Assembly: GCF_041260155.1 (NCBI RefSeq)
Contig: NC_091933.1
Coordinates: 7,962,501 to 8,026,500, forward strand
DNA length: 64,000 nucleotides
From: Ptychodera flava
Taxonomy: Eukaryota; Hemichordata; Enteropneusta; Ptychoderidae
Direction of reading: 5' to 3'
Position 1 is the first letter of the stretch. Every line of letters begins with the position of its first letter. The position numbers were made by a program, and so were the translations under genes. Of this stretch, positions 15,641 through 44,100 are shown one piece after another. A model generated the notes under the pieces. The model was given only the letters and a program-made list of their open reading frames with translations, did no database searches and had not been told where the DNA came from.

Positions 15641-15674
15641 GCACTCATTCATATTCTTACATGTACGCAAACAG

Positions 15675-18600: not shown

Positions 18601-21600
18601 CATCATGTTCATGAACTGTAAGTGTTGTGTTATGAATGAGTGGTTTCTTCCAAATAGAACAGCCAATGATTGGATATGACTTTTTGGCGGCAAAACTTCA
18701 GAGGCCGATGATCAGTCAAAACAATGTGTCCCGGGCAGACAGTGTGTCTGGGGAAATTGAAAACAACTGCACTGCAGACAGTCTGTCTGGGGAAATTAAA
18801 AACAGCTGCACTGATCTTCATATGTAACTAACAAGACACTGTGATAAGGTCAAAATATGTACAAGAAATTTTGTTTGGTCTGCAGAGGATAAATTACAGT
18901 GACACCAGTTTTTTCCTTTGATTATGGTATAGGTAGGACAAATAAGTTGTCTGAATAAGACTAGTGCATGGACCAGTGCGTGGTAATGTTATCTCAATCT
19001 TCACCACAGAGTGCCAATCATCAACTCTCATTTATAACCCTTGGAAGAGCTGGTTTTTCATTTGTACAAACAGAATTTCTGACTGCATCAAGTTGGCTTA
19101 ATCAACAGTAAAGTGGCCTCCAAAGTTGCAGTGTCTCTATAGTTCAAAGTTACATGTATTAGCCGAAATGATAACTTCTCCTGAACCTCACTTTAAACTC
19201 GTTTGGGTTGTTTGGGTGTAAACTGAAACCACGAATGAGGCCAGACAAAGAGTCTCCACATGACTACACCCCACTCAGAAGGGAACCAGCTGCACTATTT
19301 GGAAGAAACCACTCATTTACAACACGTGAAATCGACACAAACAAAAATAATTTTATTGAAATTCAGAGAGCAGTAAATGAGACCACAAGTGTAGATTGAA
19401 AAATTATCTTTATTTCAGTAGTGTAGTATATTATATCCCAATTATATCAACACAAATATCATAATTATTTTTATTCATTTTGAATCCCATGAAGCAACAA
19501 GCAGCCACCCCTATACTGAATTATACAAACCCAGATAAACTTTGTGGCAACTACGCCCTGCTTGCACAAAGTGTCTGCACCTGACTGAAATGAAAAACGA
19601 TATCGCTGGCAAGTTAACAAAGTCCCTCGCTAATTACCAAGTGAATTCGCTATATGGTCAGCAATACAGCTGGGTAATTTGCAAATTGGGTGTCCAGTTT
19701 CCAGTCGCCTCCGCTGTAATTTGCTCGAAAGTTTCAGGTTATAAGCATTGGAGTCAAGAGTGTAAAGTTTTGATCAAAAGAACAAATCTTTTTAACTCAG
19801 GGAAATTCTGCTGTCTGCTATATGAATGCGTTTGACTACAAAACTTCCGACGGCATGCTGTTCCCATTACAGATGTGCATTTACATTTGTAACACCTTCA
19901 TCTGATCAAAGATAAAACAGAAATCCGATGAGTACGGTTTGAAGCGAAGTGGAGGGGGTGTCATATCTGAACGTTTTGTCAGATACTCGCCTTTCAGACG
20001 CCAATCTTGTAATTGTTACTGTTTCGTAACACCTGCCTCCGCTGAATCTTTCCTCAGAACGATCGCATTGGTACTCTGAATCAACTAGCCACAAAATACA
20101 TTCAAGCGACTGTTCCAGATGGTCATTCTGTCGGAATTGTTGAGTTCGAAGACGATGCAGTAATTACGTCAGATCTTCGGGAACTGCAGGACGGCAAGGA
20201 TCGTGAAGAGTTGGCAAATCTACTCCCAGTCTCAACAAGAGACTCCACGTGTATAGGATGCGGATTGGAAATTGGTATAGATGTAAGTAATAATACTAGA
20301 AAGACATAATTCATAATATGGTCGTCGTACAAAGGAATATAGCGTGTAACGAAAATATATAAATATATCTGTAAAAGAATGTAACCCATTCACATAACTG
20401 GGTCGAATAGGTCTTAATTGATCTATTCAGATACCAATCACTCAACAATTAATCTACATACACGCATGAATGATAGTAACGTATATCAAAAGCCTGGAGT
20501 GACGTTTTATGCGCATATTTACATCCATTATGGACTTTCCACATATTTTACTTAAAGGTGCTGGAGAAGAATGGACATTCTGCTCGTGGCGGCATTCTGA
20601 TTTTGATCACAGACGGTGAAGAGAATGAGTCTCCAGATATAAATGATGTCAAGCCAGCTTTGATAAGTAAAGGAGTCTGCGTTGACACGGTGGCAATAGG
20701 TACGTCAGCAGATGAGAAGTTGTTGAGTCTATCCGAAGACACATGTGGACTCTCCTTTCTTCACAGTGAGGGCGCCAGCTCTACTGGACTGAGCGATGCG
20801 TTCTCGGCAACAATTACTTCCAGGATTGGAGGAAACTCGAACGCATCTTTCGAAGTAAGTTATTTCCTTGAGTTCTCACCAATCAAAATATCTTTACAAC
20901 CATTTTCAGTAATAGAGCGCGAAGCCACTGCAGTGAACTGCAATAAAACTGCTCGCACTAATTAGTTTCAGCTGTAGCCAGCTGGCAAAGTCGACAACAT
21001 TGTATGTCCCATGCAGACAGTTTGCCTGGGGAAGTTGAAATAAAAAAGATTTGTACATGGACCAGTGCATGGTAATGTTACATTGTATCTTAATCTTGAA
21101 CACAGGGTGCTAATCGTAAACTCTCATTTACAACCCGAGCGTCAGACAGAGCTAGTTTTGCCTTTGTACAAGCAGACTTTTTGTCTGTATCAAGTAGCCT
21201 TGTTCAACACCAAAGTGACCACGGCTACAGCTGAAACTAATTAGTGTAAGCAGTTTTATTGCAGTTCACTGTAGTGGCTTCGCGCTCTATTACTGAAAAT
21301 GGTTGTATTTTGTGAAGAGACATAGTCAGTGCACGATATCTCTGTTTTCGGACGTAACTTTCTAAGCGGTTTCAAGAGCTTTTGTTATACATATTCACAA
21401 AAGAAAGCAGGACCATCTACATTTCGCTGTTCCACTAATTCTTGGTAGAGATTTCTGTTAGAAACATAAAATAACGACATGTTCAATGTACAACCAAATC
21501 GAATATAAATGAAAAATGTAACAATCAACTTAAAAAACAATACAGCACAGTGTTCTACTGTAGAATGGCTGCGTTGTCATTATGGTGTGATGATAATTCG

Positions 21601-23899
21601 AGTTGTGCGCAGTCCGGTCGGTACATAATTGCTTACACTGAGCTTTATCTATTCTTTTCACCTAGCTGTACAGTGAGAAGCAGGCTATACCTTCAAATGA
21701 AACATTGAAGGGTACCATCGTCATAGACTCAACAATCGGCAAAAACACTAAGTTTTTCTTCCTGTGGACTACTACGTCACCGATTTCCGTCGTTCTGTAT
21801 AGACCGAACGGGACAGCTATTGACGAAACTTCACTTTACTACGAGCGCAACGATGGATCGCGGACCGTGTTGATTGAGATACCTGGCATCGCTGAGGTAT
21901 GATTTTTAAAAACTTCAATAAAAATGTTTATACTTACCTTGACGTAGTTTTCTATTCAACATTTCAATTATGGAATTCTATTGAAGGGGTATGTATTAGC
22001 CCGCACTAACTGAGTACAGTAAGTGCTGAAGTTTATACAACATAGTGCATTTTCTTCAAAAATGAGGCTGTGATCTCTTGTATAACCACGTGAGCCGTCG
22101 CTGAGCGACGTCACAAACTGGTAGACATAGCCTTATGAAACCGAGTTCAGCATATTATAAAATATAATAAAATATGATAAACTCGTACTGTTGAATACGT
22201 GTCGTTGTCTTTTATTAAGTGGAATTGAATATGTCAATCAAACCATTTTGGAAATCACAAGTGTGCTCAGTAAGTGAAGCAATACACGTACATCCTTGTC
22301 AATTTATTATTGCTATTCAAAACTTAATTGAAATCAATTGCTAATGTTCTGGAAATGCAAAAATAATTACTGCAGTTGTCGTTTCATAGGGAATCGGATT
22401 GTTGGAAATACTATCGTGTCGGGTTATATCCCAACCTACATACTTTCACGAGCCTGACTAACAATTTATAGTTACTTTAAAAATTTGCCGTTCGTAAACT
22501 GTCGTTGCTCTGTAGCTTTGCGAAGCGTCTTAGACTCTTAGGAACGACACCATTTTTCAATATTTCGACATCATGTATGAGTAATTTAAAAAAATAGTGA
22601 AAAATTTCAACCTAACTTTGAAATATCCAAAAATACAAAGAAATTAATGCGTTATTTTCCAAATACTTATCCGCAGTGAATGATTTTTGTTACATGAAAA
22701 CAAGTTCTTGCAAGTAGAAGGCCTTACACGCAACTGTGAAACTTGATCAATGCATTCTTACAATGGCCATTACTTTCTAGTCCGGTACGTGGCTATATGA
22801 AGTAACTGACCATCAGGGCGAAGACATTGAAATATCTGTACAATCCAACTTAAGGGAGGACACACAGCCTATTCGAGTGACCACAACGACCAGCAACTCT
22901 CTGATCACTGAAACACCGGCCATGACTAACATTTACGCACAGGCTCAGCGAGGATACGCACCGATACTAAAAGCAGACGTGGTGGCGACAGTGGAAAGAC
23001 CACACCCTCACTCGCCAGTAAAAGTTAATCTTCTCGACAATGGAGCAGGTATTGTTTCCATCTTTAAGTGAAATATTTGCTATTTTAGTGAATGTTATTC
23101 TGTAATTATTTGTGATAAAAGCGAGTTCTAGAAATAGGTATTTATATCATTTCAAGATATATTGATTGCTAGTTGAGTGCATTTCTCAAAACATGCTGGA
23201 TGGTGCGGGAACGTTTTCATTCTACAACCCCAGGAAAAGTGCATCATAGAATTTGAACCATCTTCCAAGGTTCTTGCTTCTATGCGGAAATCACATATGG
23301 TTGGCCGATGTGGAGAAGTGTAGGCTGAGTATTCGGGAAACACTTTGTCATTGTTCATGTTTTGTAGGCAATATTTGAAGGAATCTTGGAAGAACGCAGT
23401 TATTGTATTGTATTCGTATTTTATTACTTTGTTTTCGAATTTCTCATCAGGGGCTGATTTCACTGAAGATGACGGCGTATATTCCGGTGTGTTCTTGGAC
23501 TTTGTGACAGCAACGTGCCCAAATTGTCGATACAATGTCAAAGTCACCGCGGTTGACACTGATGGCACAGCTCAAGTTCCCATTTCGACGTTCACCGGTG
23601 GAGTATTGCCTATTCGACCACGTGAGTGTGCTATATTTTTAACAGAATTTTATTTGCTTTGTCTGCTTTGCATTTATTCGATGATTTCCTGAATAAAACA
23701 AAATATAACGTACTCACGTGTCTGTTCTTTCTTCTCTCCACCCCTCTTCAATTCTACCCATGATTATGAGCCCCGATGAAAATTACTATTTCAGTAACTC
23801 GGCCGCTCAGTAAAAGTGTAAATAAATAAATAAATAAATAAATAAATTGTCTGTCTTATTTTCTCTGTCTCTCCTGTGTTTTCCTCTCTCTGTTCTGTT

Positions 23900-23942
<43 letters not shown>

Positions 23943-24901
23943 GCCTGTCTGTCTCCCTCTTCTCTCTCAGCTAATGGTATCGACGAGAATACAAACATTA
24001 CCGAACGGTTGGTCCATTTTATAGAGTGGTGTCTGGTGGAGTTATTCAAGCACCCTTGACAATACCTCCTGGTGACAACTTCCCGCCATCCCGAATCACA
24101 GACCTGAGAGTTGCCGCCACATCGTATGACAACCAAACGGTCACCTTAGCTTGGACAGCACCCGGTAATGACCTTGATCGAGGGACAGGTAAGATAGATT
24201 TGGAAATTTAGTGCTTGCTTCAGAATGACATTATTTTATTTGGAAGCACACAGTATTACAATTTATTTTGTGTGGAGACTAATTTCGAAGACCAATATAT
24301 GGGCTATTTAATTTTTGTTTAAATTTGTTCACATCTTGTTCGTCAACTTGTCATTTCCTTTGTTTATTCCAAAATGTTCATTGGATAATCAAGAGTATAT
24401 TGACATTTTTCAGCTTCCAAATACCATCTGAGGTACAGTGAGATCTTTGAAGTGTTTTATAAAAACTTTACGAACGGCATGGAAGTGTCAAATTCGAATC
24501 TCACAGTCGGGAACTTGTCATCTCCGAAGTCCTTCGGCAAAATGGAAACGATGACGGTTCTGATGCCAAGCAAAGATGAGAACATCACGTACTTCTTCGC
24601 CGTCAGAGCACGTGACGCCCCAGGCAATGTAGGACCACCGTCGAATATTGTTTCGGCCACTATTGTATATGATGACCCGGATGAAATCATCATCATCACG
24701 ACCGAGTCTCCGGACACAACGCTAGACACTGAAACGGAAGTAGACATGCAGAGCGGGCAAATATCGATTTTTCTAATCATTGGTTGCTCTGTAGCAGGTG
24801 CCCTGCTTGTGATTGTAGTGGCAATTATCTTGTCTAAGTGCTTGATTAAAAACAAGAAGTATTTGCCCGATAAAGAAGGGGTAGAGAACATCGCTTTTTA
24901 A
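15675..24901 (+). CDS. CLCA family protein, copy A (exons 2-11 found)
   Basis: A CLCA protein is a secreted or surface metalloprotease-like regulator of calcium-activated chloride conductance. Exons: 15675-15969, 16502-16779, 17591-17839, 20058-20282, 20558-20854, 21666-21896, 22781-23048, 23451-23621, 23971-24188, 24414-24901. Exon 2 has the YTNQFGSCGE cysteine segment. Exon 3 has the zinc-protease signature HEWGHLRWGLFNEY. Exons 4-6 form a VWA domain with MIDAS DVSGSM and ITDGEE. Exons 7-8 are the beta-sandwich, and exons 10-11 a fibronectin-III-like segment. A C-terminal helix (IFLIIGCSVAGALLVIVVAI) precedes a short basic tail. All exons fit phase except exon 10, which is 218 instead of 219 nt and shifts frame (see separate entry). 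Exon 1 with the signal peptide was not found within the 15.6 kb upstream. Confidence 0.85.
18232..19716. mobile_element. 1.5-kb foldback element in CLCA-A intron 4
   Basis: The left arm starts CAGCGGAGGCGACTGGAAAC (18,232); its reverse complement ends at 19,716. Inverted similarity runs through about 440 bp of each arm (to about 18,670 and 19,285), including GCTTGTTGCTTCATGGGATT and the AATGAGTGGTTTCTTCCAAA segment. The interior holds a 40-bp tandem duplication (GCAGACAGTNTGTCTGGGGA at about 18,737 and 18,776) and a core at about 18,966-19,125 that is also found in the foldback at 20,896-21,306. No transposase was found. Confidence 0.8.
20896..21306. mobile_element. 411-bp MITE in CLCA-A intron 6, starting 42 bp after the donor
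   Basis: Inverted ends of about 85 bp: ACAACCATTTTCAGTAATAG from 20,896, with its exact complement ending at 21,306. Arms include GAAGCCACTGCAGTGAACTG / CAGTTCACTGTAGTGGCTTC. The interior (about 21,053-21,225) is clearly related to 18,966-19,125 in the larger element, although the arms differ. It lies just past the exon 6 donor at 20,854. Confidence 0.85.
23819..23947. repeat. Two tetranucleotide microsatellites before exon 10
   Basis: (AAAT)n at about 23,819-23,846 and (CTGT)n at about 23,901-23,952. The CTGT array merges into the C/T-rich run that ends in the exon 10 acceptor TCTCTCAG (23,970), so the microsatellite supplies part of the polypyrimidine tract. Confidence 0.9.
24006..24026 (+). 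other. Frameshift site in CLCA-A exon 10
   Basis: Compared with copy B exon 10 (219 nt), this exon has 218 nt. The alignment gap falls in GGTTGGTCCATTTTATAGAG here against CTAATAGGTCGTTTTAAAAG in B. As written, the frame stops at TGA 24,058; the downstream frame then resumes FN3 homology (IPPGDNFPPSRITDLRV) in another phase. It is either a disabling mutation or a one-base assembly error. Confidence 0.8.
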
Positions 24902-25930: not shown

Positions 25931-26659
25931 TACTTAGCCCGTTAATTTGGGCTTTCCTCACGCCCGTGGCCACATAAATAAACGTTAATGGTCAGCGCGG
26001 ACTCTGTTATTTCCATTATATTATCCATTATATATCAACGAAGCCAAGAAACCGTCAATTTTTTTAAAAAGTTCCCACTCGAAAGACAACGGGGCCCAAG
26101 ACTTGTCAGTGAGTAGTACGCTATAAAAAATTGCAAAAATCCAAAGATTTTTTTAAAAGTTTCTAAACTTGGCCCACAAGTGCTCCACTGTATTTTGTGA
26201 TTTATTATGATTGTACAAATCACATTATACGTTTTAGCTGTAAAGTTATGATGTTTACGATCTTATTCATATTCACGTGCATGTAACAAACCATTATTGT
26301 GTATTTGTGGGCAGTCACGAGGTTCAGCTTGACAGGGCATGGTAATATAATTAATTTTAGAGTGTCATGAATACTAGTACTCATTCTCGTCTGGAATTAT
26401 GGAAAAATGTAAGTTTTCCTTACGAATAATTTACAAAAACGCCATGCCCAAGCTGGGCACTTAAAAAAATGGGATCCGACGACTGGAGTAAGATTTGAAG
26501 CAATTTCAATACACTTAGAAACAATAATCGGTCTGAACTATAGTGACTACGGTTCATGTACATTTGTTTTATGTCATTTAATTTTTTGCTAACTCGTACA
26601 CTGCAATAAATTTGTACCTCAATATATTCTAATTGAAACAAGTACACTGCAAATTTTTC

Positions 26660-27200
26660 TGGTTTGCCGGCCAGCTAAATTCAAGCCAAAAATAAACCGG
26701 CTTGTTTGTCAGTAAACGGATTGTTTCGAGTTGTGAATTATATTTGGCTTTCTGGCATGCCAAGTCTGGTTTCTGTGCATGCCAGTTTGGGTTTTGATAC
26801 GGCATATATACATGCCAAGTACAGATCACTTCAGCTTGCCAGTAAGCCAGTTAGTACTAAAGAATGGTTTACAGGCAATCCACTATTATATGAACTAGGC
26901 TTGCTAGCAAGCCATGTTTAAGATACTGTGGCTTGCCCATATACCAGATAATGCTGAACAGTAGCTTATTTTTAACCAATACCACACTTCCATGGATCAA
27001 TAGTAAGCCAATTCTGGTTCCATCTGGTTTGAAGATAAGCCATATTACTGCAATGTGGCTTACAAACAAACCAATTTCTGACTAATTCTGGTTTACAGGC
27101 AAACCACTGTAAGGATTCCTCTGGTTTACCAACAAGCCATTACAAGCTGGCTTGCAGGCATGCCAATCTATGGCTTTTTGTAGGGCTTGCTGACAAACCA
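26660..27200. repeat. Left palindrome array, ~32-bp spacing
   Basis: About seventeen imperfect 18-bp palindromes start at 26660, 26698, 26745, 26767, 26800, 26832, 26865, 26897, 26929, 26962, 26993, 27025, 27056, 27089, 27122, 27148 and 27183. From 26,767 to 27,122 the spacing is 31-33 bp without exception, about three helical turns. Examples: TGGTTTACAGGCAAACCA (27,089), AGGCTTGCTAGCAAGCCA (26,897), TGGCTTGCAGGCATGCCA (27,148). Loops and spacers all differ. Confidence 0.85.
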
Positions 27201-27536
27201 GTTCAATATTAGCCATATTTCGGGGGGGGGGGGGGGGGGGAGGGATAATTATTTCTGACCATCCTTCAAATTTAAATTGGATGTCTTCAAATTTTGTAGA
27301 CACAGAGGAGGATTATCATCCCATGGAATGGCCTATTGGGTCCTCTATGTGATGGAGCTACACAAAGCAGGACTGTAAAATATCTGAAACACAAACAACA
27401 GCTGAAATAGTTAGAAATCCTGCAAGCTACATTAAAAAAACAACAATAATCATCAAAATGAATTTCAGACTAACATTTATTGCAATTTACAAGAAATGAA
27501 ACAGTCTTTGTTGCAACATAATTGAATCTAATACTT

Positions 27537-28245
27537 ACAAGGGAATACTAAAAATGACATTCTTATGAATGCTACTTGTAAAATCATACTGATAACATAA
27601 TTTAATGCATCTGATGCAAAATTGCTAGCTGTTTCACTGGGAAATCCCCTGTACACTGCAGACCACTCATAATTGTCAGCCCATTTACTTCTCATCCCAG
27701 CTTTGTCAAGCCAGAAGTACTCTACAAATTGAAATGTTCCTTTCACACATCTGATGTAATCAAAGTTTGAAACCCTACATAACTAAGCAAACCTAGCACA
27801 ACATTGTCTCTTTCCATGCTGCAGAATATAACACCTTCAAGAAACAACACAAACTGTTTCCTCCTTTATAGACGAGCACACCTAAACAGGGCTGCTGCTT
27901 TGCATCTCGTCCACAGAATGTGAGTTTCCAGCATCCTGCAATATAAAAGATGCAAACATTCAAACTCTGCGGTCCAAGATGAGCTCCTGGTAAAACACTC
28001 AGTGCCCAGCTACTTGTACAATGAGGGCAAGGCCTAGAAACTGGTATGTTTAGGGAATTTGTACAAGTATATAACAGTCATGTTCTTAAACACATATTTG
28101 ACTGCAGGAACACAATTTTCAAGTCTTTCTTGGTGCATCAATAATCTGACATGACTGCTCAGGGCAAGTCTCTCAGTATGACAAAGATAGCTCTTACAAG
28201 TTACTGTCAATGTCATAGGCTTGCTGCAACAGTGCACTGGCAAAA
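27537..28245 (-). other. Possible further minus-strand exons in the element
   Basis: Three stretches have good splice signals: one opening after TTTTTGCCAG near 28,232 (Cys/His-containing frame, KSYLCHTERLALSSHVR), one after TATATTGCAG near 27,947 with donor-like GTGTGC near 27,892, and one after GGTTTGCTTAG near 27,784 ending at donor GTAAGT near 27,542 (frame includes DKAGMRSKWADNYEWSAVYR). They could be downstream exons of the 188-aa gene or a second gene. No family recognised. Confidence 0.25.
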
Positions 28246-28629
28246 AGTGTGTGAAACTACGGAGTGAATTTCACGATAATGAATTTCAATTCAAGAATAT
28301 CAAAATGATTATTACAAGACAAGATATATCAGAGTCACAGTGCAATGTCCTTTTGAGACTTGCAAAGAAGTTAGTAGACCTTTGAGAAAGCATTTTATCA
28401 CTCTGGCTATGCAACCCTCATCATTGATGATATACTTCACATGTATGTAGTTTGAAATAAGTAAATGAGGCTCCATTAACTGTAACTTTTGTCTACTTCT
28501 TCAGTATTTCAGTACTGTTAATCAACTACAATTTTTGTCTACTTTCCACAGCATACTAAAATGCCAAGTTTTATAGCCTGTATATTTGATCATTTTTATA
28601 ATTGGCTAATGAAGTCTTGTACGGCCCTA

Positions 28630-29165
28630 AATGAAATTTTCAACAATAACAATGCTACATGTACATACTATATTGAGTAGCTAAACATTGGGGATTTCAT
28701 CATGCTTCAATGACTTGAATGGGAAACTGCAGTTGATAAGCAGAACAATTGTACTGGACTGTTCACACACTAGGTACATGGATGTAAATTCAGCTGTGCT
28801 AGTTATTTTCTGACTATGCTATACTGGGGATATTATTTTAATAGCTGGTAGTCTCTGTTGCTTCTCAGGGCTGGTACAGCTGTGTGTACATCCCTGAACC
28901 AGCCCTCTGAAAGTAACAGGGTTGTATGAATTTTCAAGTGTAGTGTTACACAATGTCCATGCACTGAATCTGACAGTAATCAAATCCAGCATGTTGAAAG
29001 CTCAATCAGCTGTAACTTTTAGCAATTTCCAAGTAATTTTATTTTGTGCAAAAAAACTGCAGTTTCTTGTTCTACTTCTTAAGGCATGATGAGTGTCAAA
29101 CATACATTATCAACCCAGTTCATATGTGCATATTTAGCATTGTTACTGTTGAAAATCAAATTTAA
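28630..29165. repeat. Diverged inverted pair related to the 5.05-kb foldback
   Basis: ATTTTCAACAATAACAATGC near 28,635 pairs with GCATTGTTACTGTTGAAAAT near 29,137. The flanking CTGTAACTTTTAGCAATTT and TTCTTGTTCTACTTCTTAA segments resemble the arms of the element at 5,050-5,403. The relationship is loose and the borders are unclear. Confidence 0.3.
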
Positions 29166-29178
29166 GTCTGGAATACAC

Positions 29179-30020
29179 CCTTTGTGCCTGTCCTGAGGGG
29201 ACATAGAACTATGGGAAAATACTAACCGGACGTGCGGTAAAACATACACGACTATACTTTAACATGGAAAGGTGCAATTTTCGAGTGAAAAAAAGTGAAA
29301 TACGAAGTGAATATTTATGCTACAACAAGAAAACACCTAGTGGTGCATTGGACTAGCTTAGGTAAGTGTTTGTGTGCATTGTTTAGCAAGGTAATATTTT
29401 ATAACTGTAGATATCGGTGATTTTTGGCACGCGAAGCGGGCGAGTTGTAGACTTTCATTTCACTATGTACAATGTATGACGGCGTAACATGGTCAGTATG
29501 TCAAAATCTTCAGAATTATGGGTAAAAATTCAAAATTTTAACGAATTCATACTTTGTTGACTTATGTTTTCATTGCTGTGTTTTTATTTTTGAAATATTT
29601 GAAAAAAATTGAACATTCACGTAAATTTGTTTCCGCTGAGCTACTACGGGTCCCTTAGGTTCGAGAAGCGCAGTCATCATACCGGCGCTACTGTCAGCAG
29701 GGCCATGTGACACAGTTTGCGTCACCCACTCTCGTATCGAGTCTACAACTTGGCCGCATCGCAGGCTGAAAATCGCCGATATCTACAGTTATAAAATAAT
29801 ACGGAGCTAAACAATGCACATGAACACTTACCAGAGCTAGTCCCATGCACCATTAGGTGTTTTCTTGTTGTAGCATAAATATGCATTTCATATTTCACTC
29901 ACTTTTTCCGCTCGAAAATTGCACCGTTCTGTGTTAAAGTATAGAAGTCGTCATATGTTTTACCACACTTCCGTTTAGTATTTTCCCATAGTTCCATGCC
30001 CCTGGCAACAGGCGCAAAGG
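29179..30020. mobile_element. Foldback element of about 840 bp nested in the 7.1-kb element
   Basis: Inverted arms of about 240 bp. Left runs from CCTTTGTGCCTGTCC through ACATAGAACTATGGGAAAAT to ATAACTGTAGATATCGG near 29,420. The right arm is its diverged complement from near 29,775 to 30,020. The centre is unrelated (29,440-29,760). No ORF was recognised. Confidence 0.75.
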
Positions 30021-30888
30021 CTATATAGAACTCATTTGTCAACAACAACAATGGTTTGTTAAACATGTACACAGTACACTGTCAAGCAGAATATTGGTAT
30101 TCATGAGACTGTTATATAGCTATCAAAACTGCAGTTTGTACACACAACAATGAAGATTCAAAATTGCTAAAATTTACAGCCAATGTGCCTTTACTAATTT
30201 ACACAGAATTATGGTAACAAATTTTTCAACAAGCAATACTTACGTCAAAACCGTAACCATTTGTCCAACTGCAGTTTTTCCACAAAAGACACTCTTGAGA
30301 ACCGAGAAGTTTGATGCCTGTTTAACAATCAGGAAAATGGTAAATTATGTCAATTCTATTCTACTTCTATACATCAGACTAAGATTCAATATCATAAACT
30401 AGGTGCATGCAAGTGCCTCCCCTCATGTGATTGATTATTATACACCTGCTTCTGTAACCTATTGAGTTTCGTTGTACAGTAAGTTTCAGTATCAGAGGAT
30501 GCAGAGTCAAATAACTTTGCGGCGCAGTACAATAACATTTGTGTCATTGGACGCTATTTGACATTTGCCCTCAAAAAACCTTTACGTCAGTGCAGGGAAA
30601 AAGGAGAGATGATTTTAAATTTTTAACAAAAAGTATACTTCTAAACATTCAGTACTTCACAACGTTACTAGTGGTGAATCAAAACCCTGTGAATTAGAGT
30701 TAAATTATGCTGCTGACCTACAATTTCTATCATGTACACTGTGCTGCGCAGGTTTGAGTTTAGTTGACACGCTGAATGTGTTCTCAGTTTGCTTGCAATC
30801 GCCTGGTGAAGTATGTGACGGGCATCCAAAAACACTTTGACTTTTTTGCGGAAAAATTGGACCAAAAAAGGTGTATAATAATAATGCT

Positions 30889-31016
30889 ATTCACAAAATA
30901 CCGAGATTTATGTCCTTGTACATCGTACGCTTTAGCATTGTCCGAGAGGCGTAGCATTGAGGACAATACCTCCGCTGCACTATGTACTCGGACATAAATC
31001 CCAGAATTTTGTGAAC
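30889..31016. mobile_element. Short foldback of about 130 bp
   Basis: TTCACAAAATACCGAGATTT-ATGTCC at the left pairs with GGACATAAATCCCAGAATTT-TGTGAAC at the right, with a second inner pair (GCATTGTCC / GGACAATAC). It resembles a tiny MITE. Confidence 0.5.
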
Positions 31017-31254
31017 AACCTTAAATTACAATAATAAGTGTAATGCTTATCATGTATGTTGTGTGACTACGACAAAGATATGTCACAGATATGTAATAAC
31101 AGCTGAAATTTGAACAAAACCCACATTGTTAGAGTAATATGTGGAAATATGAGGAACATTCACGCCTAACATGATTATTATCGCTGCACACAACGATATT
31201 TGATCACCTTTTATATTTACTTTCTGAGTTCCACCATATCTGAGGGCAGAGTCT

Positions 31255-32473
31255 TCATTCTGTTTCCACATTGTGCTCAGAGAATCCATTGTTAATTTGT
31301 GGAGCTGAAGGCATTTTCTGTATCAAGTATATCATGCCCTGGACCATCTGTTGAAAAAGAAACAAATAAGTATCTATTACCAGTAAGTGGAAGTCAATGG
31401 TCAACATTTGTACGTGAAGTTATTTGCTGGAAATGAATCACTTTAGTATGTACCTGTCTTGAATGACAAGATGGCTCACAGGATTTGTGTAAACAATGAC
31501 GTTGAAGGACCCAAGTTAAAATCAAGCTGTGGAAACATAAAGTTGCCTTGAATAACAGAATCAACCATTACGTCATTTTGGACAAATGATTTGTGAGGTA
31601 TGTTTGTCTGTATTAAATCATCTAAGTTGCCAGGTCGAGGTTATTATCAACATAACCAAGAAATATCATTCATGAAACAGTCTAGTTTTGTTATTGAAAG
31701 AATGGTATGAGGATACCTGCATCTACACCATGGCAAGTCAGCCATACAAACACCGTATAAAAGGGACACACACACATCAGGCCCATTTGTTACATCCTTG
31801 GCAATCATCATTGATATGAATATATGCACTAGCTGCAAAATTTGAAGCGCTACGGTGAGGCGGTTGGGGAGTTTTGGTTTTTGCGACCTCACTCACCAGT
31901 AGCACTACAATGCCGACGGCCGTGTAGAGTTCCACCACATACATGAAATAAGCACATCCCACTGGACGAGGCGTGTTGATGTGAAATGCTACATAATTGC
32001 TGAATTTGGTCGTACGATTTATCACTACTGAAGACAAACACTACACAACACTAACCTTGTCGTTTATGGGGTTTGGAATTTGTTCAAACATGTCGATCGC
32101 GTTCCATAAACCATGGATGTAATTTTTTTTTACATCCATGCATAAACATTGACTGAGCGTAGGGCATCCGTGTTTCACTGAGCCGCCTGTACCGGAAGTT
32201 GAATGGCGGCTCCCAGAAATGTTTTCGGAACGCGATCGAAGTGTTTGAACAAATTCAAGCCCGGTTTAAATTAATGACTTTCACATCTTACACGGAATAT
32301 AACACGGAATAAAGCTTACTTGCCTCAAATTCCAAAGACGTCGGTTCTTTCTTTCTACCTCCATGCACAGATCTAGCGGGACTGTGCTCCATCGAGTGAC
32401 TCGATGCATGGTTGAACGAATGAACACAAATACATGTAGTTTCGCTGTACATAACATGTTCTTCCAAAGTCAT
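31255..32473 (-). CDS. Putative five-exon gene inside the 7.1-kb element, 188 aa, unrecognised
   Basis: Exons in transcript order: 32473-32320 (154 nt, ATG start), 32027-31897 (131), 31832-31717 (116), 31526-31454 (73), 31347-31255 (93, TGA). All four introns are GT-AG (donors GTAAGC, GTGAGT, GTATCC, GTACAT; acceptors CTTCAG, TTGCAG, CCACAG, CAACAG), and phases 1, 0, 2, 0 join into one 567-nt reading frame. The product starts MTLEEHVMYSE, contains a His/Ser-rich stretch and a hydrophobic segment across the exon 2/3 junction (VGIVVLL then LVHIFISMMIA) that could span a membrane, then a Cys-rich part. No family recognised. A ten-codon upstream ORF precedes the start. An alternative acceptor inside exon 5 (TGCCTTCAG, about 31,305) would keep another frame open to a donor at about 31,218. 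Confidence 0.4.
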
Positions 32474-33307
32474 ATTTCGTCGGTGATGGAAGCCATTGCT
32501 GTCGACTGTTATATGGGAAATTTTGGAAGTAACTGACGGGGACTGCCGTAGTTCGGAAAGGACTTCGGAAAGGTTGGACGATCGTAGACTGCGTAGAGTA
32601 CTGTCTCAGCTGCACTGCATCTCGGCTGTGGCTTGGTGCGCAGACAGAGGAATTCATACGCCACTCCCTTTGAAGTGAAGGGGTGAGGATTCCACTAGCC
32701 AGCGGTCACTTTAAGAGTACGATCAATCAGCAAGTACAATAATTCTTACATATGTCACGGTGATATAATATCTATAACGAAGTTCACATTGACTCGGGGA
32801 ATCATTGTGTAAAATTGAACTATATAAAGCGTAATGTTACAAAGGGTGAACCGTGGGTCAAAGGTTACGTAATGACCGCGACCGTTAACTTTATTGAAAC
32901 ACGCCACGCGTGGACACACGTATACGTAACGCTCTAAATTATCATCAGCGGTGATCTGGCTTGCATATTTTTGGCACGTCATGAGCCATAAATTATTGTG
33001 GTTTTTACTTTCGTTGTTCTCGCGGGAAATGCAGACAATCCGACCTATAGGCCCAACATTTATTTTTGCATGTTAATGAAAGAAAAATGACGTCATTTGC
33101 GATCAACACTATTTCAGTATTGTCAATTAATTCCTTCAAATTATTGTTTTGATATTTATGTACCCGCATACTTGAAGCAAGTTCATATCTTATGTTCAAA
33201 ATTGTACAGTACGACAAAATTAAAGCTAATCAATCTGTCGCACTGAATGCAGGCATTGATGCGCACCGTCCTCGCTGTTATCAATGTAGTGACGTGATGT
33301 ACGATTC

Positions 33308-33726
33308 TGGTTTAGATATTAACCCGTGACTGTCATGACAATGGCTTGAAAACAGGCCGATTAATTTCAAGTGCATGGATGGTTTAAACTTAAACCATAC
33401 TCACAAAGTTGCCACTTGTGGTTGGTTTAAAGATGAGCCAATGAATTTGTCGGTATATAAGCAAACCAACGATGCCAGTGGCTCAAATTTAAACCAATGA
33501 GAATAGACTATGAAAGGCTTAAAAAGAAGCCATTCGGCTTAAATTTATGCCATGACGGGCTTGATAATAAGCCACCCATGTATTGGTATGAATACATGCC
33601 ATTCATACTCTTTGTGGTGGCGTGACTGCAAACCAAAAAATCTTAGTGGATTGCGGGCAAACCGAAATATTTCAAACTGGTTCACCCGCAAGCCACATAC
33701 AAACCAAGTGGTTATATTTCAAGCCA
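33308..33726. repeat. Right palindrome array
   Basis: Fourteen 18-bp palindromes start at 33308, 33342, 33380, 33423, 33451, 33479, 33515, 33535, 33557, 33584, 33618, 33647, 33678 and 33709. Spacing ranges from 20 to 43 bp with a mean near 31, less regular than at the left end. Examples: TGGTTTAAACTTAAACCA (33,380), TGGTATGAATACATGCCA (33,584), TGGTTCACCCGCAAGCCA (33,678). Arms co-vary (TGGTTT with AAACCA, TGGTAT with ATGCCA). Confidence 0.85.
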
Positions 33727-33849
33727 GAAGAATTTGCAGTGTAATAAAGTGCTTAAAACAAATTAAACAATATTACTCGCACAGAAATACACACACTTGA
33801 CACAAACAAACACACAAAAACACACGCATACATGTATACATGCATACAT

Positions 33850-33850
33850 A

Positions 33851-33911
<61 letters not shown>
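33850..33911. repeat. (TA)n microsatellite
   Basis: About 60 bp of alternating TA directly outside the right end of the 7.1-kb element. A second one lies at about 46,662-46,718 in intron 1 of copy B. Confidence 0.95.
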
Positions 33912-33912
<1 letters not shown>

Positions 33913-35010: not shown

Positions 35011-35102
35011 GTAACATATTAGTCAGCATCAAAGTTGTGTATCTTTCTCTTTTACGGTAACATATTAGTCAGCATCAAGGTTGTGTATCTTTCTCTTTTT
35101 CG
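35011..35102. repeat. 46-bp tandem duplication over the copy B stop codon
   Basis: GTAACATATTAGTCAGCATC followed by AA(A/G)GTTGTGTATCTTTCTC occurs at 35,011 and again at 35,057. The second unit contains the copy B stop codon (TAA on minus, 35,065-35,067) and its last coding residues (KIHNLDAD). The first unit lies in the 3' UTR and duplicates that coding tail. Confidence 0.9.
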
Positions 35103-38100
35103 ATGACTTGTATTTAATGATAATCAATGATGTTATCAGGACAGCGACTACTGCCACACCGGCCAATGAACAGCCAACCACCAATGACGTCGACACGGCC
35201 CTACTCGGTAAGCCCTCTTGCGGTACGGCCGAGGAGACTCGGAGAACAGAAGACATTCTTGATGGGAATTCCGTCGTTGTAACTACATCATCCGGGTAAC
35301 GACCAAGTTCAACAGTGATGGAGACGATGTTCGACGGCTGCCCAACGTTACCGGCTGCGTCCCGAGCTCTGACTGAGAAAAATAACGTAGCGTTTTCGTC
35401 GTGGTCCGGAATCTGGACTATCACCGTTTCTGTTTCACCGAAGGGCTGCGGTGATGACAAATTTCCGGCCGTGAGGTTAGAGTTGGTTAGCTCCGTACCA
35501 TTCATGAAGGTTTTGTACAGTACACTGAAGTTCTTGCTGTACTTAAGATCATATTCATCAGCTGAAAAATGAAAGTTGAACGACAGAAAGATCTATCATT
35601 AAAACAGACCGTGTATTTCGTTAAGATGATGGCCGATACTCGGACTAGACAGCTGTAAACGCGGCCTTGTGTGCAAATTGTTTGGAAACATTAGAAATAA
35701 TGCTCGATATACCCGTCTGCGCCATCAACATTAACGTAGAAAACAATACACCCAATATTAACAACTGACATCAAAAATATTGTTTGGAAGATGAGTTTGC
35801 GATCTACAGATGTTTTCTTAACATCGAGGAATCTTCTGAGCATTCCTAGAAAGGTTAATTTCCTGTTTGATTATTCGGGCAAGTTGAATAAAACACACTT
35901 TTTGAATGCAGAAAGCAAGCTTTCTTTTCTTTCTCAGCTTTAGGCCCGAAACTGGAAGAAATTTGTAGATTGACAGCTTTAGGGTTTCAAGACAAGAAAT
36001 TGACCTTTATAATCTAACAATTCTCTGGTGGTTAATAAGCTCAAAACCCCCGTAAATTACACATTTTCTAAAAGCCTAGAGACAGGGTAACATTTTGGTA
36101 ACAACAGTGTTACCATTGTTTACATAACTATCACGTGATAGGTAATTTGCATAACCTTTCAAAAATCTGTTTTCCCTATGTTAAGTTCATCAAAATATCT
36201 TACTCAAACTTTCTGGAATGCCAAGCTGTCACAACGCTCTTGCAAAGTGTGTCTCAGATTATATCTTGCTTTTTGGGCACAATTTTAGGATAAAATTCAC
36301 CGCTCTAGAAGTTTTTCTGGCATAAAAATTGTTTCAGGAGGTTTAAAAAATTCTGAGACACTTTTTGAAAGATCCTCCTGACAGCTTACACTCACACAAA
36401 TTTCAGCCTTATATGTCAAAGCATGGAACCAAAACATACAAAATATAAGGGAAATAGATTTCTCAAATATTATGCAAATTACCTGTCACGTGGTAGTTAT
36501 GTAAACAATGGTGACACTATGGTAATAAAAATGTTACCATATATCTAGGCGTTTCCGAAAATATATTATTTACGGGGTTCTGAGCTTAATACCATTAGAA
36601 AATTGTAATCTTAAAAAGGTCAGATTCTTGTCTTGAAAACTTTAATAAGTGAAAATTTCACAAGATGATAGTCCGATACGAAGAGAGGCTCTAGATTGCC
36701 ACATTATTAATAAAGTTATTGTCTATGATTATAACGAGATGGACTGTCAGATCTTTAGAGTAGTTTGTTGAAAATGATGATAACAGTTTTCGCATTCCAG
36801 CATCACGTAAGAGCAAAGAGAAAATGGCTTTATAGTTATTTGTATCACTGTTTAATTCCGACTGTTACTCAAACGGCAGTCCCTAATAAGTTGCTGGTGA
36901 CTCATATGAAATGCCAGCTGACTGTGTCCAATTACTTCATCTCTTGTTCAGAGGTGACATGCTTTCCCTTAGAGTAAGCAAAACATGCAGATTTATTTAA
37001 TAGAATTCAACCTATTTTCAAGGTTAAAGCATTACTACATTCTTGCGAAAAGAAGGAAAGCTGCAATTATCGATTTTAATATAGACGGCAGAAGCAAAAT
37101 CTACTCTCTACGTTTTAAGAATGGCATGCTTCTCATCAGCTGATGCACCCGTCCTGGGATAAATGGTCGACCTAAATGTAAGTGTGCAGTACTGTAGCTT
37201 TGTCTGGCCGTCTCATCGCTCCAACGTGCCACCAAATAGATTCACTTTTTCTTACAGTACTGTTACGCTTTCAACTTGTTTGCACCAGAATCATGTTCAT
37301 TTTATCACGGGCCTACCTGTTCCTCGATCCAGGTCATTTCCGGGTGCTGTCCACTCCAATGCGACAGTTTGCTCGTCATACGATGTACCTATCACCCTCA
37401 GGTCGGTGATTCGGGATGGAGGAAAGAGGTCACCATGGGGTATGGTCAGAGGTGCCTGAATCACGCCACCAGACACCACTCTTTTAAAACGACCTATTAG
37501 TTGCGTTAGGTTGATTCTCTCGTCAATTGGGTCCGCTGAGAGTTTAAATGTATATTCTGAGTTAGTAGCCCTAAAACATGGTGTTTTATCTAAAAAATTT
37601 AAATCGGGTCCTTATTCGAACAAAATATTTCCTTCGATGTTGATACAGCGTAAATGACAGACTTGGCGTAAAATGATATAAACAAAAGATTGAAAACTCA
37701 ACGAAGTGTACTAAAAGATATGATCATTGAAGGTAATTTAAATACAATAATTCCATGTTGTTGTCTCTCCTTGAAATCCATTTGTACTTAAACAGAACTA
37801 GTGACACAAGAAATGTTTTTTGTTTTTTTTTATGTTTTCTAACTTCCAGCAGTCAGGAAATACCAGGCGTCTATAGTCTCGATGCAGCGCCACCTCTCGT
37901 TACAGTGAGAATTCGGATAAGTAGTCTGCCCATCACATGTGGTGTATGCAGTTTTGTTGTCATAATGATGACCTTCGTCAACCTAAAATATTATCTTCGG
38001 CTGAGTAAATTGACAACATGAAAGTTAACAGAAAAGCTAACAAACCACAAACAAAATTCAATCAGTAATAGGGAATTGAGATTGTCACAGAATTCGCAAA

Positions 38101-41100
38101 GATTAACTCACTCGGTCGCATGATCGGTAAGACTCTGCTATTGGAATTGCCTATAACAGGCACTTCAGCGCCCCAGCTGGTTTCCTCTGCAGTCACTTTG
38201 ATGTTGTAACGGCAATCAGGACAAGTAGCTGTCACAAAGTCCATAAACACGCCGGAATAAACTCCATCGTCCTTACTGACGTCAACTCCTGGTGGTCCAA
38301 AAATTAATAACGCTGACAAGTTCCTCAGAAATGTCGTAGATTTGACAATTGAACGAAACAACAGAGATTCTAAAGTTGACATACCTTTAATCAAAAATTT
38401 CTACTTTAAGGAGTCTCTTGAACACGAAATGCAAAAGTGCATCGTCAGTGATCAAATGTTCTAATTTGCAATCAAAGTCAGGGACGGTAGTTTCAATTAC
38501 AGACAATAAGGCAACTCGCTCGCATCTATTATTTCTTTAGAAGAGACATGCCCTACCGCTCCATTATCGAGAAGTCGAACATCCACGGCTTGGTATGTTG
38601 ATGGCCTTTCTACTGTTGCAGTAACATTGGCTTTGAATACTGGTGAGTAGCCCATTTTAACTTGCACGTAAATGTTGGTCATTGCTGGCAGTTCCGTGAC
38701 CAATGATTTGCTGGTCGTTGTCGAGACGACAATGGGCTGTGTGTTGTACCTTGCGACGGACTTTACCAATGTTTCGACCTGCTGTTGACTACCAGAAAGT
38801 TCATACAGCCATATCCCAGGCTGGGAAAAGATTGAGATATTTTGTATACTTTAAAGTTTGCCCCTAGCTGATTGACATTTTCAAATCAATGAATCATGGT
38901 TACTGAATTCCGATCGACAGTATTGGAATTCGAGTTTGGAACTGAATTTACGACACACATTCTTCAAATATTCACCCTATTAGTAACCTCCCGAAAATAT
39001 GTGATATTTATAATTTTATTCAAAACACATCATTTCTGTCCTTTATTCTTCGCATGTTTCATTTTTACATGCGATAAATTGCATGTTGGCTCTCCAGCCT
39101 ACTGTATATTGATTGTTGAATCGGCTTTAATTGTTGTCAGCATTGAACCAGATATGAACTGAAAATGCTCACGTGTTTCATTATATATTGCAGTTATGTG
39201 TAAATTTGAACCTTTGCTACATGTTTGCAACTTCACTGAAAGTATTATGATCAACATAATGAACAATAATCACCGCCGATTAATTCTAAAAGGTCATGAA
39301 GTATACAAATATGTAATTAGCTGAAATAAAAATATTAAAGTTCTTTGACTGCTGTCATTGTATCACCATTTTATATAGCAAGTGTAATTACCGTTGGCCA
39401 AGTCCTTCAAGCCATATATGCCGAGCTGTGAAAGCTCATTAGATATGCAAATTATAAATTAGCTGACATGAAAATGTGAAATGAATTTCGATATTGTTTT
39501 AACCAGGTATAATCATCAATGTACATAGCATGTTTTGCCAACTTTGATCAAGTAAATCCCAGTATATATCCCTAATAAGCAAAGTTCATTAAATATGTAA
39601 ATTAGGAATTGACTTAATTAAAAGTGCCTTATGATTGTCAATAATGTTGTATCATGGTATCTGCAATATATGTAGCAAGTTTTGTCAACTTTGGTCAAGT
39701 CAATTCAGATATATATCTCTAATTAGGAAAGTTCATTAAATATGCAAATTAGGAATTGGCTGAAGAGAAAATGCTTAATGACTTTCAATAATATTGTATT
39801 ATAGTGTCTTTAATGTACATAGCAAGTTTCATCAATTTTGATCAAGTCAATTCAGATAGATATCCCTAATTATGAAAATTCATTTAATATGCAAATTAGG
39901 AATTGGCTGACGTAAAAATGTCTTTTGACTTTCAATAATGTTATATCACAGTATCTTTGATGTATATAGCAAGTTTCAACAACTACAATCAAGGTAATTC
40001 AGATATATATCCCTAATTGGGAAAGTTTATTAAATATGCAAATTCGGAATTGGCTGAAGTAAAAATGCTTAAAGACTTTCAAAAATGTTGTATCATAGTA
40101 GCTCCAAATACATGTAGCAAGTTTCATCAACGTAGGTCCAGTCAATTCAAATATATATCCCTAATTAGCAAAGTTCATTAAATGTGCAAATTAGGAATTG
40201 GCTAAAGTTAAAACGCTTAATGACTTTCAATAATGTTAAATAATAGTATCTTTAATATACATACCAAGTTTGGTCAATTTTGATCGAGTCAAATCAGACA
40301 TATATCCCTAATTAGGAAAGTTCATTAAATATGCAAATTAGCAACTATTTTTCATGTCACCCCTTAATGGTTCCCACTGCTGATATATCTTGGTGTGATC
40401 AACATTTGTAGCAAATCTCATCAAATTGTGTGTAGTCGTTTTTAATGTATATCCGTTTTTTCTAAAATCATTAATTATGCAAATGAGCAAAAAGTATGCA
40501 AGCCACACCAACCAAAAACTAATCAGTTCTTGCCATTTGCCAACTGAATATATGTACCAGATTTGATTCTGATCTGATCAGCTTTTTATGAGATATCGGA
40601 CCAACAGACAGACACACAGACACACAGACACACAGACAGACATCGCTGCGACATATGCTCACGTGAGCAAAAAACGGGCATATTACGTATACTTATATTC
40701 TCGGACAATGTAGGTTAAAGTTTGATCCACATGGTAGCTTTTTTGTGGTATTCACTCAAGAGTATATCTCCAATCTTTCAAATTGGTAGCATTGCGTATA
40801 TACTAAGCGATCTTCAAGATTCAAAATCGTACCTCTGCGATGCCAGAGATCTCAATTGACACTGTCTTCGCCCCGTCGTCACTCTTGTACTCGGGTGCAG
40901 AGGCATCAATAGCCGTCCCTTCCGGTCTGCGAAGGACAACAGATATCAGTGAAGTGGACCACAGGAAGAAAAACTTCGTGTGTCTCCCGATGGTAGAGTC
41001 TATGATGATGGAACCAATTAAATTGCCCGCTGCAGGAATTTCCCGCTTCTCACTGTGCAACTTCATAGAAGAAAGGGAAAAAAGTCATGATCATCCAAGT

Positions 41101-44100
41101 TTCCAAATAGGTCTTTAACTGTTTAAGCTGGCACCACAACACAGTTATCTCGTGAATAAAGAAGGTCAAACCGCCAACATGTATACTTTCAAAAACAAGA
41201 TATCTGTTTATGTCACATTCTATTTCATTACACAACAACAACAAAAATTAAGCAAGCCTAAATCGGAAAAGTTTACTTTGTCCCAACTCCGTAAAGTTAA
41301 GCATTGACTTTTAAAAAATTCAATGAAGAGTTTCCAAATCATGTTTCTGACAAATGTATACACGAATAATTCTTTATTTAATCGAGAATTCTTTGTTTTG
41401 AGAGGTAATTTCTTTTTCTTTGGGATGGCAACTTTACTTAGGACGTTACTTCCACCCTCAAAAAGACTAACCTGAGCCCATATTTCTATAGCTATGATAG
41501 AAAGACGCTTTGTGAGATCATGATCTTAAAAAATGATGTCATATTTTAAGACTGAAACAGTAAAAACTCAGGCAAATGTCACCAGGTGGAGATATCATAT
41601 CAACTCACTTCAAATGGTACATTTGAGCTTCCCCATATCCTAGAAGTGATGGTAGCCGTCAGAGCGTCGTTGAGTCCGGTGGAACTCTCACCCTCTCCGT
41701 GGAGAAAGGACAGTCCACCGGTATCGTCAGACAGACTTTGCAATTTCTCATCAGCTAAAGTTCCAAATGCCACTGTGTCAACACCGACACCTTTGCCAAT
41801 CAAAGTTGGCTTCATATCAATAATACGAGGATAAGAACTACTCTCCTGGCCATCAGTGATCAACAGAATTATCCCTCCGCGAGCATTATTTCCTCCATTC
41901 TCAAGAACCTTTGAAATATAACAATACATATTAGCAATGGGAGCATTCGCTGTCTTCAAGAACAACGTTTCCACTTATGTTTCTAACCGCACGAATGATA
42001 ATGTACATTGTTTCCTAGCTTGAATGTTCTTTCAAACTCTATTTGAAGATCTTATCTTGAATTAATTGGCCATTGAAAATAATACTAAATTTAAAGATGA
42101 ACCAAAAATTTGCCAAAGCATGATCGTGTTGTTTAGTTTCCGATTAAATATTTTTTATTCAAATCTAATTCTGATTAAACTATCTAATTTTGAAGTGACC
42201 GCAATTCGATTTTGATATATTTTTCGAACACACTGTCACCTCTATACCACTTCGCAATCCACAACCAATGCAAGTTCCACCACTAGCTGTCGTCGGCAGC
42301 AGATTTGCCAAGTCTTCGCGATCCTGAAGTGTCTTCAATTCTTTCAGATAGGACGTTATCGTTGCACTTGACGAGAAACTGACGATTCCAACTGAGTTTC
42401 CATCAGGCACAGTGGCCCGGATGTATTTTCTTGTCCCTTGGTTCAATATACTGATACGGTTGTTCTGTAAGTTTAGGTAGATAAAAGTAAGCAAGGAGGC
42501 ATTCTAATTTCTTAAATACTCTTTCCCTTTACAATCTTTATCAAAAGTATCCTCTATGACATGGGGTACTTTTGTCGTACTTTTAATATATTGACAAAGT
42601 TAGACAAATGCTAATTTTGACATTGACACCACATTAAATGTACAAGGAAATTCACGTTTATTATCAAAGATACTGGATTACAAAGACTGCGCTTGCATAC
42701 TTATTTTGAGTACCCAATATTTCCAATAAGATCACTCGAAACTGAAGAATTTTGCTCGCTTTGCAATAGAAACCAAAGCGAAAGCTGCACTGTAAAATAT
42801 TCAAAATAATATATTGACTTAGTGTTTAAAATATTTAAAGGTTTTAAAATTTAAAATATGCATACAAAAGGTTTCGAAAATGATCTGGCAAGGATAAGCT
42901 ATGAGAACTCGCTGTAAAGGTTTGGGCTTTGTACTCTCCCTCCCGAAAAAAGATAGTGCGTTGATAAAAAGAAAACCCTGGGATTATTTTGATGTTTTAA
43001 ATTGTTCATTGTGGGCCCAGTGTACTCCAGTTATGTCGAACGACGAAGGGAATACTAATTTCATCACTATTTCTAAAACATTGTATAAGTTCTTTCCACC
43101 TCATATAATGTATGTAGTTATCGAGTGATAAACCTGAATTTTGACCTTAAACGGCAGTGTGCAATAGTCTTTCTTGAAATTCGAAACCTACGTCATTCAT
43201 GCTTCCCGAGACGTCCAGTACCAGGACGATTCGAAGTGAAGCCGACTTGACCACACGGAAAGTCGGCGTGGTGTCAGTCACTTGCCGGGCTGGATTGTGG
43301 TCATTCTTGAAATCTTCTGACTCCAGCATTACGTCCCAGGCACTCCTGTATGAACACTGTATGTTCTGTTGGCTAGGAGCCATGGCATTGTGAAGGGACA
43401 ATGGATCACCAGTGACGTCGCTGTGACAGAATTCAACGACCTTGAAGGGAAAACAGGGTCTTAGAGTTAAACCATCCTGGGTTCCTACATGTACATGACA
43501 CACGACGCAGATTTTACAATATTTATCGTCAACGGCAGACGTCAAAGACAACCTTTTCGGGACGTTTTATTTCAAGGCACTGTCGGTCGATCGTGTTGTG
43601 ATGGTTTGAATCGGAATTACAAAAAAACATACAGCTATAGCCATACTAACTGTTAATTTGTTTTATGTATTTTTACTCATTACTTAGGGATAATGGTCCA
43701 AATAAGAAAGAAATAAAGTAGATTTCTCGGAAAGGTAAACATTTTTATATCGACACCGGAAGCTTGTAATATATTAAACCGGCCCTCCAATGTTCTAATG
43801 GTCAAAAAACTCGAAATATCTTATTGTTCATTAACTAATTTCTTCCACGATCATCGGAAAAGATCAATGCAGTAGTTAAGAAACTTGAATAATATATTAT
43901 ATCATATAACATGTCAACATAATTGATGTCACGAATAAATGTTATAGCCATACTGTGGATTAACCCGTTCGAACACTTACAGAGCTCAGGAAACTCATAT
44001 GCATGTAAGACCCTGTTGCTTGGTTATTCTCAAGCTGTGGATAAAATCTGCAGTGCTGGTCCGGTAGTACGCGATTCTTTGAATTCAAGCTACATTGTTC

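Follow-up and report, generated by a model that had tools for sequence, protein, structure and literature searches.

A 7.1-kb element, the two ends of which are mirrored around an interior, lies at positions 26643-33743 of a 64,000-nucleotide stretch of the genome of the acorn worm Ptychodera flava (contig NC_091933.1, 7,962,501 to 8,026,500; hereafter, the window). Each end bears a short terminal inverted repeat followed by a long row of variable palindromes built on one common motif. That this is a two-ended element is well supported, and it probably represents a new family in a hemichordate. The explanation that we favor, with moderate confidence, is that of a non-autonomous cut-and-paste DNA transposon whose termini resemble those of the CACTA/EnSpm-Mirage-Chapaev (CMC) group and whose arrays would be bound by a dimeric transposase or by a TNPA-like protein.

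Two mirrored ends with a common motif

The tips, TACACTGCAAATTTTTCTGG (26643-26662, plus strand) and TACACTGCAAATTCTTCTGG (33724-33743, minus strand), form a 20-bp inverted repeat with a single mismatch, exactly as the preliminary description of this DNA had reported; the repeat extends to 24 bp with two mismatches and ends there. When up to three mismatches were allowed, the tip pattern matched the window only twice, at these two places, against 0.09 matches expected, and one of 100 shuffled windows reached two such matches. If the tip is read as CACTG...CAGTG, a TA is left over on either side. Among the 20 combinations compared at the borders (four starts by five duplication lengths), this reading was the only one to give a perfect direct repeat, a match of two bases that is weak alone and could arise by chance. 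A 5-bp reading pairs AAGTA with TAATA (3/5 identical), and an 8-bp reading, shifted by one base so that the tip becomes ACACTG, pairs AAACAAGT with AATAAAGT (6/8 identical). The first palindrome begins at base 18 counted from the tip on the left and on the right alike, and this offset, the common tip and the TA at both borders support the earlier proposal of a single element with two mirrored ends.

The immediate surroundings of the tips have features of their own. A further copy of the 9-mer TACACTGCA, which occurs five times in the window (0.79 expected), is found at 26597-26605, 46 bp outside the left tip and in the same orientation as it; this outer copy may be the relic of an earlier insertion, or chance. 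A long AT repeat (33844-33912) begins about 100 bp outside the right tip, and a run of 19 G (27222-27240) marks the inner edge of the left array.

The palindromes of the two arrays are of the form TGGYTT-N6-AARCCA. At two mismatches or fewer this motif occurs 43 times in the 64 kb, and the two ends account for 28 of the 43 copies, with 14 apiece. The count of 14 first given for the right end thus stands, and the 17 given for the left must be lowered to 14, or to 15 if the sites found by a weight matrix are included. The remaining 15 copies are the background of some 63 kb outside the ends; four of them are one repeated sequence in a minisatellite at 8-11 kb, and another, at 32629, is inside the element between the arrays. 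Dinucleotide shuffles of the ends contained on average 0.22 (left) and 0.15 (right) copies against the 14 and 14 observed, with a maximum of 3 for either end in 300 shuffles. A half-site matrix trained on the left end yielded 14 matches in the right end (0.54 expected), and one trained on the right end yielded 15 in the left (0.65 expected), the additional left site starting at 26800. This recovery of the sites of one end by a matrix from the other shows that both ends share one motif. The gap of 6 and the inverted order of the half-sites are distinctive: other gaps (0-19) gave at most 7 pairs on the left and 2 on the right, and other half-site orders (gaps 0-23) at most 6 and 3.

The ends are alike in design rather than in linear sequence, but the idea that both loops and spacers differ freely between the copies holds for the spacers only. 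The 18-bp units have a mean pairwise identity of 0.656 on the left and 0.603 on the right, and their six-base cores are more alike than a composition null would have them (0.419 vs 0.265 on the left, 0.381 vs 0.304 on the right). The half-site is therefore nearer to 8 bp, and the loops are not entirely free. The seven-base flanks are at or near background identity (left, 0.327 and 0.350 vs nulls of 0.30 and 0.30; right, 0.268 and 0.262 vs 0.28 and 0.26), the left 3' flank being some two standard deviations above its null. Left half-sites have the consensus TGGYTTRC, and right ones are A-rich at positions 8 and 9; a C stands at position 8 in 20 of the 30 left half-sites vs 6 of the 28 right ones (one-sided p 0.0006). 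In a comparison of left with right units, the identity was 0.687 and 0.634 within the ends and 0.638 across them (permutation p 0.0115), a difference that could have come either from local duplication of units inside one end or from a preference specific to each end.

A probably non-coding interior and the searches for further copies

The interior offered no credible transposase, RAG1 included. Its six frames, compared with Pfam at E values up to 1, gave a single match (Yos1, E 0.14) that was far under its cut-off, and its longest open frame has 110 codons, which is at the level of chance (simulated median, 120). The best frame of the element had a codon score of 9.2. The better of two other non-genic stretches scored 7.5, a value biased low in that both stretches were also part of the codon-scoring background, and 20 training exon segments from genes for calcium-activated chloride channel regulators (CLCA) ranged from 9.0 to 49.9, with 4 of the 20 below 11. 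A hidden transposase is consequently disfavored by the Pfam results, by the chance-length frames and by codon scores near those of non-genic DNA; these leave room for a short or decayed exon in the interior, or for a CMC transposase of an animal type that is poorly covered by the Pfam models. Since there is no credible Pfam match and the open frames are of chance length only, the element is most likely non-autonomous. The interior also contains four inverted-repeat elements (Table 1) that we infer to be nested insertions; part of the degenerate one (28591-28737) has a relative at 5107-5259 (67% identity over 153 columns).

In the search for further copies, the tip pattern had no match in the viral contigs and three in the prokaryote contigs. 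The 8-kb loci around these three hold 1, 0 and 2 palindromes at two mismatches or fewer, about the rate of the window outside the ends, and we read the three matches as chance. Palindrome pairs were found at four viral loci (L001 to L004), none of which has the tip: L001 has six copies at 22-bp intervals, L002 a single pair, and L003 and L004 copies of one near-constant sequence. The paralogous CLCA copy did not provide an empty site, its alignment stopping at 25442. A literature search for the tip letters as text returned no transposon title among the matches listed, and Ptychodera flava was named nowhere among the matches listed of one literature search.

Affinities of the element and competing explanations

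The preliminary description recognized no described superfamily with this architecture. That was mistaken: CACTA elements, the soybean element Tgmt* and the hAT element Hermes all provide precedents (PMC8978399, PMC2613891, PMC10368747). Behind the short CACT tips of CACTA elements stand subterminal arrays in which motifs occur in direct and inverted orientation (PMC8978399). In Tgmt* the 28 repeats (4 left and 24 right) make up 2 + 12 = 14 palindromes, and in the En/Spm element of maize the protein TNPA recognizes the subterminal repeats (PMC2613891). Like these, the acorn worm element has short inverted repeats that start with CACT, behind which a short motif recurs in both orientations over hundreds of bases; the plant elements differ in their hosts, in the 3-bp duplication of Tgmt*, in a tip that reads CACTA rather than CACTG and in the motif itself, and there is no transposase in the element to compare with theirs.

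Among the other branches of the group, CAC...GTG termini are a hallmark of Chapaev (PMC4079192). The CMCT clade has duplications of 2-5 bp and mostly CA...TG termini, with TA as the duplication in the fungal ESTA lineage (PMC12730594). The termini of the element are like those of the Chapaev, Mirage and ESTA lineages, and its TA, if it is a duplication, would fall within the range of the clade. Chapaev itself differs in its duplications of 3-4 bp, subterminal palindrome arrays find no mention in the available parts of these two papers, and here again the element has no transposase to set beside theirs. The SmTRC-type relatives of CACTA share with it an animal host and, as 2-bp duplications, a possible border; they differ in inverted repeats that start with CCC, and the word "subterminal" occurs 0 times in the available text (PMC1636069).

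Of the features by which the CMC group may be recognized, the element thus has the CAC...GTG termini, in the form CACTG...CAGTG and by the published definition of Chapaev (PMC4079192), and the subterminal short-motif arrays of the CACTA branch. Its TA fits the shortest of the 2-4 bp duplications, though two bases may match by chance. The DDE transposase with its C2C and H(3-4)H motifs did not appear in the six frames against Pfam, as is expected of a non-autonomous copy. Because it is the transposase that defines the group and none is seen, we call the element CMC-like and do not file it as a member; its membership of the superfamily is unproven. The known kind to which we refer it is that of cut-and-paste DNA transposons whose short inverted repeats are backed by subterminal binding arrays; no superfamily is proven by this.

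Under the CMC-like explanation, an element-derived protein, either the transposase itself or a TNPA-like accessory protein made by an autonomous relative elsewhere, would sit as a dimer on each palindrome, its two subunits each contacting a half-site of about 8 bp. The filled rows would then draw the two ends together and bring the catalytic core to the tips, and these would be cut at CACTG and joined into a TA. If it is mainly the half-sites that matter to the protein, the spacers would be expected to drift and the loops less so, and the ends would keep a common design without alignment.

Several observations weigh against this explanation. The element is known from a single copy, and there is neither an empty site nor a visible transposase to back it. 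A TA duplication is also a mark of Tc1/mariner elements, and the TA might belong to the inverted repeat itself, in which case nothing was duplicated. The SmTRC-type animal relatives of CACTA begin with CCC, not CACTG, and the deeper sites of Hermes were judged unlikely to act through extra transposase binding, so that long arrays need not be fully used (PMC1636069, PMC10368747). In a count of dyads that ignored the motif (six-base arms, gap of 6, at most one mismatch), the left end had an excess, with 13 near-perfect dyads against a window-wide background of 4.3 per 500 bp, and the right end, with 5, had none; the right palindromes are therefore imperfect, and the half-site motif rather than perfect symmetry is the common feature.

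Spacing is a further difficulty, being regular on the left only. Nine of the 14 left steps are of 31-33 bp (the others are 85, 22, 64, 26 and 35), which gives R 0.77 at a period of 32.0 bp (nominal p about 1e-4, the period having been taken from the same data). The right steps run from 20 to 43 bp and are not periodic at 32 bp (R 0.31). For the helical repeat the left end gave R 0.19 at 10.5 bp and 0.62 at 10.8 bp (nominal p 0.003), and the right end a nominal signal at 10.2-10.3 bp (R 0.56-0.58). Strict helical phasing, with all sites on the same face of the DNA, is not supported, as the two ends disagree on the helical period.

The competitor that survives best, which we consider possible if rather unlikely, is a non-autonomous transposon of another TA-duplicating group, either Tc1/mariner or a TA variant of PIF/Harbinger-ISL2EU-Spy, in which the role of the palindromes would be unchanged. 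It draws on the TA at both borders, although this is a matter of two bases only. The DDE/D transposase of Tc1/mariner was not found in the six frames against Pfam, and to our knowledge that group does not typically carry as many as 14-15 palindromes at each end. The termini CACTG...CAGTG, moreover, fit those of CMC elements. For the second of the two groups, TA duplications do occur in a PHIS lineage (PMC12730594), a fact that also detracts from the TA as a sign of CMC affinity.

An undescribed superfamily, the transposase of which would read palindromic dimer sites in long arrays, seems to us improbable. The lack of a credible transposase and a tip that agrees fully with no single family compared could be cited for it, as could a literature search in which no such animal element was found among the matches listed, judged by title and the start of the abstract. 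The features of the element nonetheless have precedents in CACTA and hAT elements, and a missing transposase is expected of any non-autonomous element. Somewhat more doubtful still is the notion of an animal lineage that would rank as a superfamily of its own, where a row of palindromic dimer sites would have taken over most of the end recognition from a long inverted repeat. The unlike core flavors of the left and right half-sites, as seen at position 8, would then let the enzyme distinguish the two ends.

We give little credence to a non-autonomous RAG-like/Transib element. Such elements are known in P. flava, and the protostome consensus of their inverted repeats, CACTWMCAAACKTYKBB, resembles the tip in its CAC start and in a run of AAA nearby (PMC7204232). 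The group differs, however, in its 5-bp duplication, for which the borders agree at only three of five bases, and in RAG1, to which nothing in the six frames corresponds.

A hAT element with Hermes-like subterminal repeats and an 8-bp duplication is very unlikely as well. The tip ACACTG that it would require is unlike hAT tips, and the best 8-bp reading, the one-base-shifted match at six of eight positions, is one of 20 combinations and falls short of a duplication. The likeness to Hermes lies in two dissimilar ends that each carry many subterminal motifs: its ends of about 450 bp mostly do not align, contain 17 and 14 motifs and have imperfect 17-bp inverted repeats, and its first two left motifs make up a quasi-palindrome to which two BED domains bind cooperatively (PMC10368747). 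Hermes differs in its 8-bp duplications, in the motif AAGT, in having just two palindromic pairs, on the left end, and in its unrelated tips.

The preliminary description had suggested selection on either protein binding or cruciform formation. Arrays kept by motif fit the former; the latter, in which the palindromes would be selected as DNA hairpins and not as protein sites, is scarcely probable, and we reject it because the arms do not co-vary. With arms shuffled between units as the expectation, 13 of the 29 palindromes had a matched Y column, where 13.4 were expected, and over all six arm columns there were 130 matches (130.2 expected), so that two protein half-sites are favored over a hairpin. 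The core columns showed a weak matched excess on the right alone (20 vs 14.5, p 0.037) that was not evident when the ends were pooled (37 vs 32.8, p 0.17), and stems of six bases with six-base loops are short. Each end does fold better than all of 100 dinucleotide shuffles (z -4.5 and -5.3), but this is expected of any row of palindromes and only restates their presence. The least probable reading of all is that two unrelated minisatellites flank 7 kb by chance, an outcome for which the left regularity near 32 bp and the slightly greater likeness of units within ends might speak, but the arrays share one motif, gap, 17-bp tip and first-palindrome offset, Tandem Repeats Finder reports a single tract in the left end, 26743-26794, and none in the right array, and the head-to-tail copies with like spacers that minisatellites should have are not seen.

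Genomic setting and significance

The window, which is animal DNA, contains several clustered CLCA genes (Table 1), the CLCA domain of Pfam being matched in the frame at 46088-46540 (E 5.6e-26). The element is flanked by the 3' exons of two CLCA genes that converge on it, at 24410-24898 on the plus strand and, in the paralogue, at 35288-35571 on the minus strand. A chimeric query assembled from two of the CLCA genes had Ptychodera flava proteins as its first six rows, among the best 120 of 209 matches. Eight of the P. flava proteins were mapped back onto the window: P0003 matched nine exon segments at 89-100% identity, all but one of them at 97% or more; P0011 matched six segments in the second CLCA gene, one at 79% and the other five at 96-100%. 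These matches point to P. flava, or a very close relative of it, as the host.

Table 1. Features of the element and of the CLCA cluster around it, in window coordinates
Feature	Position	Strand	Remarks
Left terminal inverted repeat	26643..26662	+	TA + CACTGCAAATTTTTCTGG; the TA is the likely target duplication
Left subterminal array	26660..27200		15 palindromes (14 at two mismatches or fewer) of the type TGGYTTRC-NN-GYAARCCA
Interior	27225..33300		Several inverted-repeat elements; no credible Pfam match
Degenerate inverted-repeat element	28591..29164
Fold-back element	29173..30026		Arms near 285 bp in length, 84% alike; a probable nested insertion
Small inverted-repeat element	30882..31023		45-nt arms, 80%
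Small inverted-repeat element	32076..32256		36-nt arms, 89%
Right subterminal array	33308..33726		14 palindromes; AT-rich cores except in three of the four nearest the tip
Right terminal inverted repeat	33724..33743	-	TA + CACTGCAAATTCTTCTGG, reading inward from the right tip
CLCA gene copies (three)	15672-24898, 35068-46540, 57657-60253		First two convergent, third further downstream

Other repeats lie at some distance from the element. A large degenerate minisatellite (7600-11770) with a 63-bp unit (AGTCAGGGTCATTT...GTGCCCTGAC) contains inverted motifs, and a tandem array with a 147-bp unit (39281-40490) is located between two exons of a CLCA gene. On the minus strand at 55283-56915 there are neighboring open frames of 105-117 codons, which we take to be reminiscent of a DIRS-type gag; they have no Pfam support, the three minus-strand frames of 54000-57000 having given no match at E values up to 0.01.

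The architecture of the ends has precedents in print, and it is of interest without being a new principle. If other copies prove to keep the half-sites and not the loops or spacers, the family would be a natural data set for the dimer site of a transposase or TNPA-like protein, with 29 instances in this one copy. The element would also extend palindromic subterminal arrays, known in the CACTA elements of plants, to a hemichordate, a group that carries RAG-like transposons as well.

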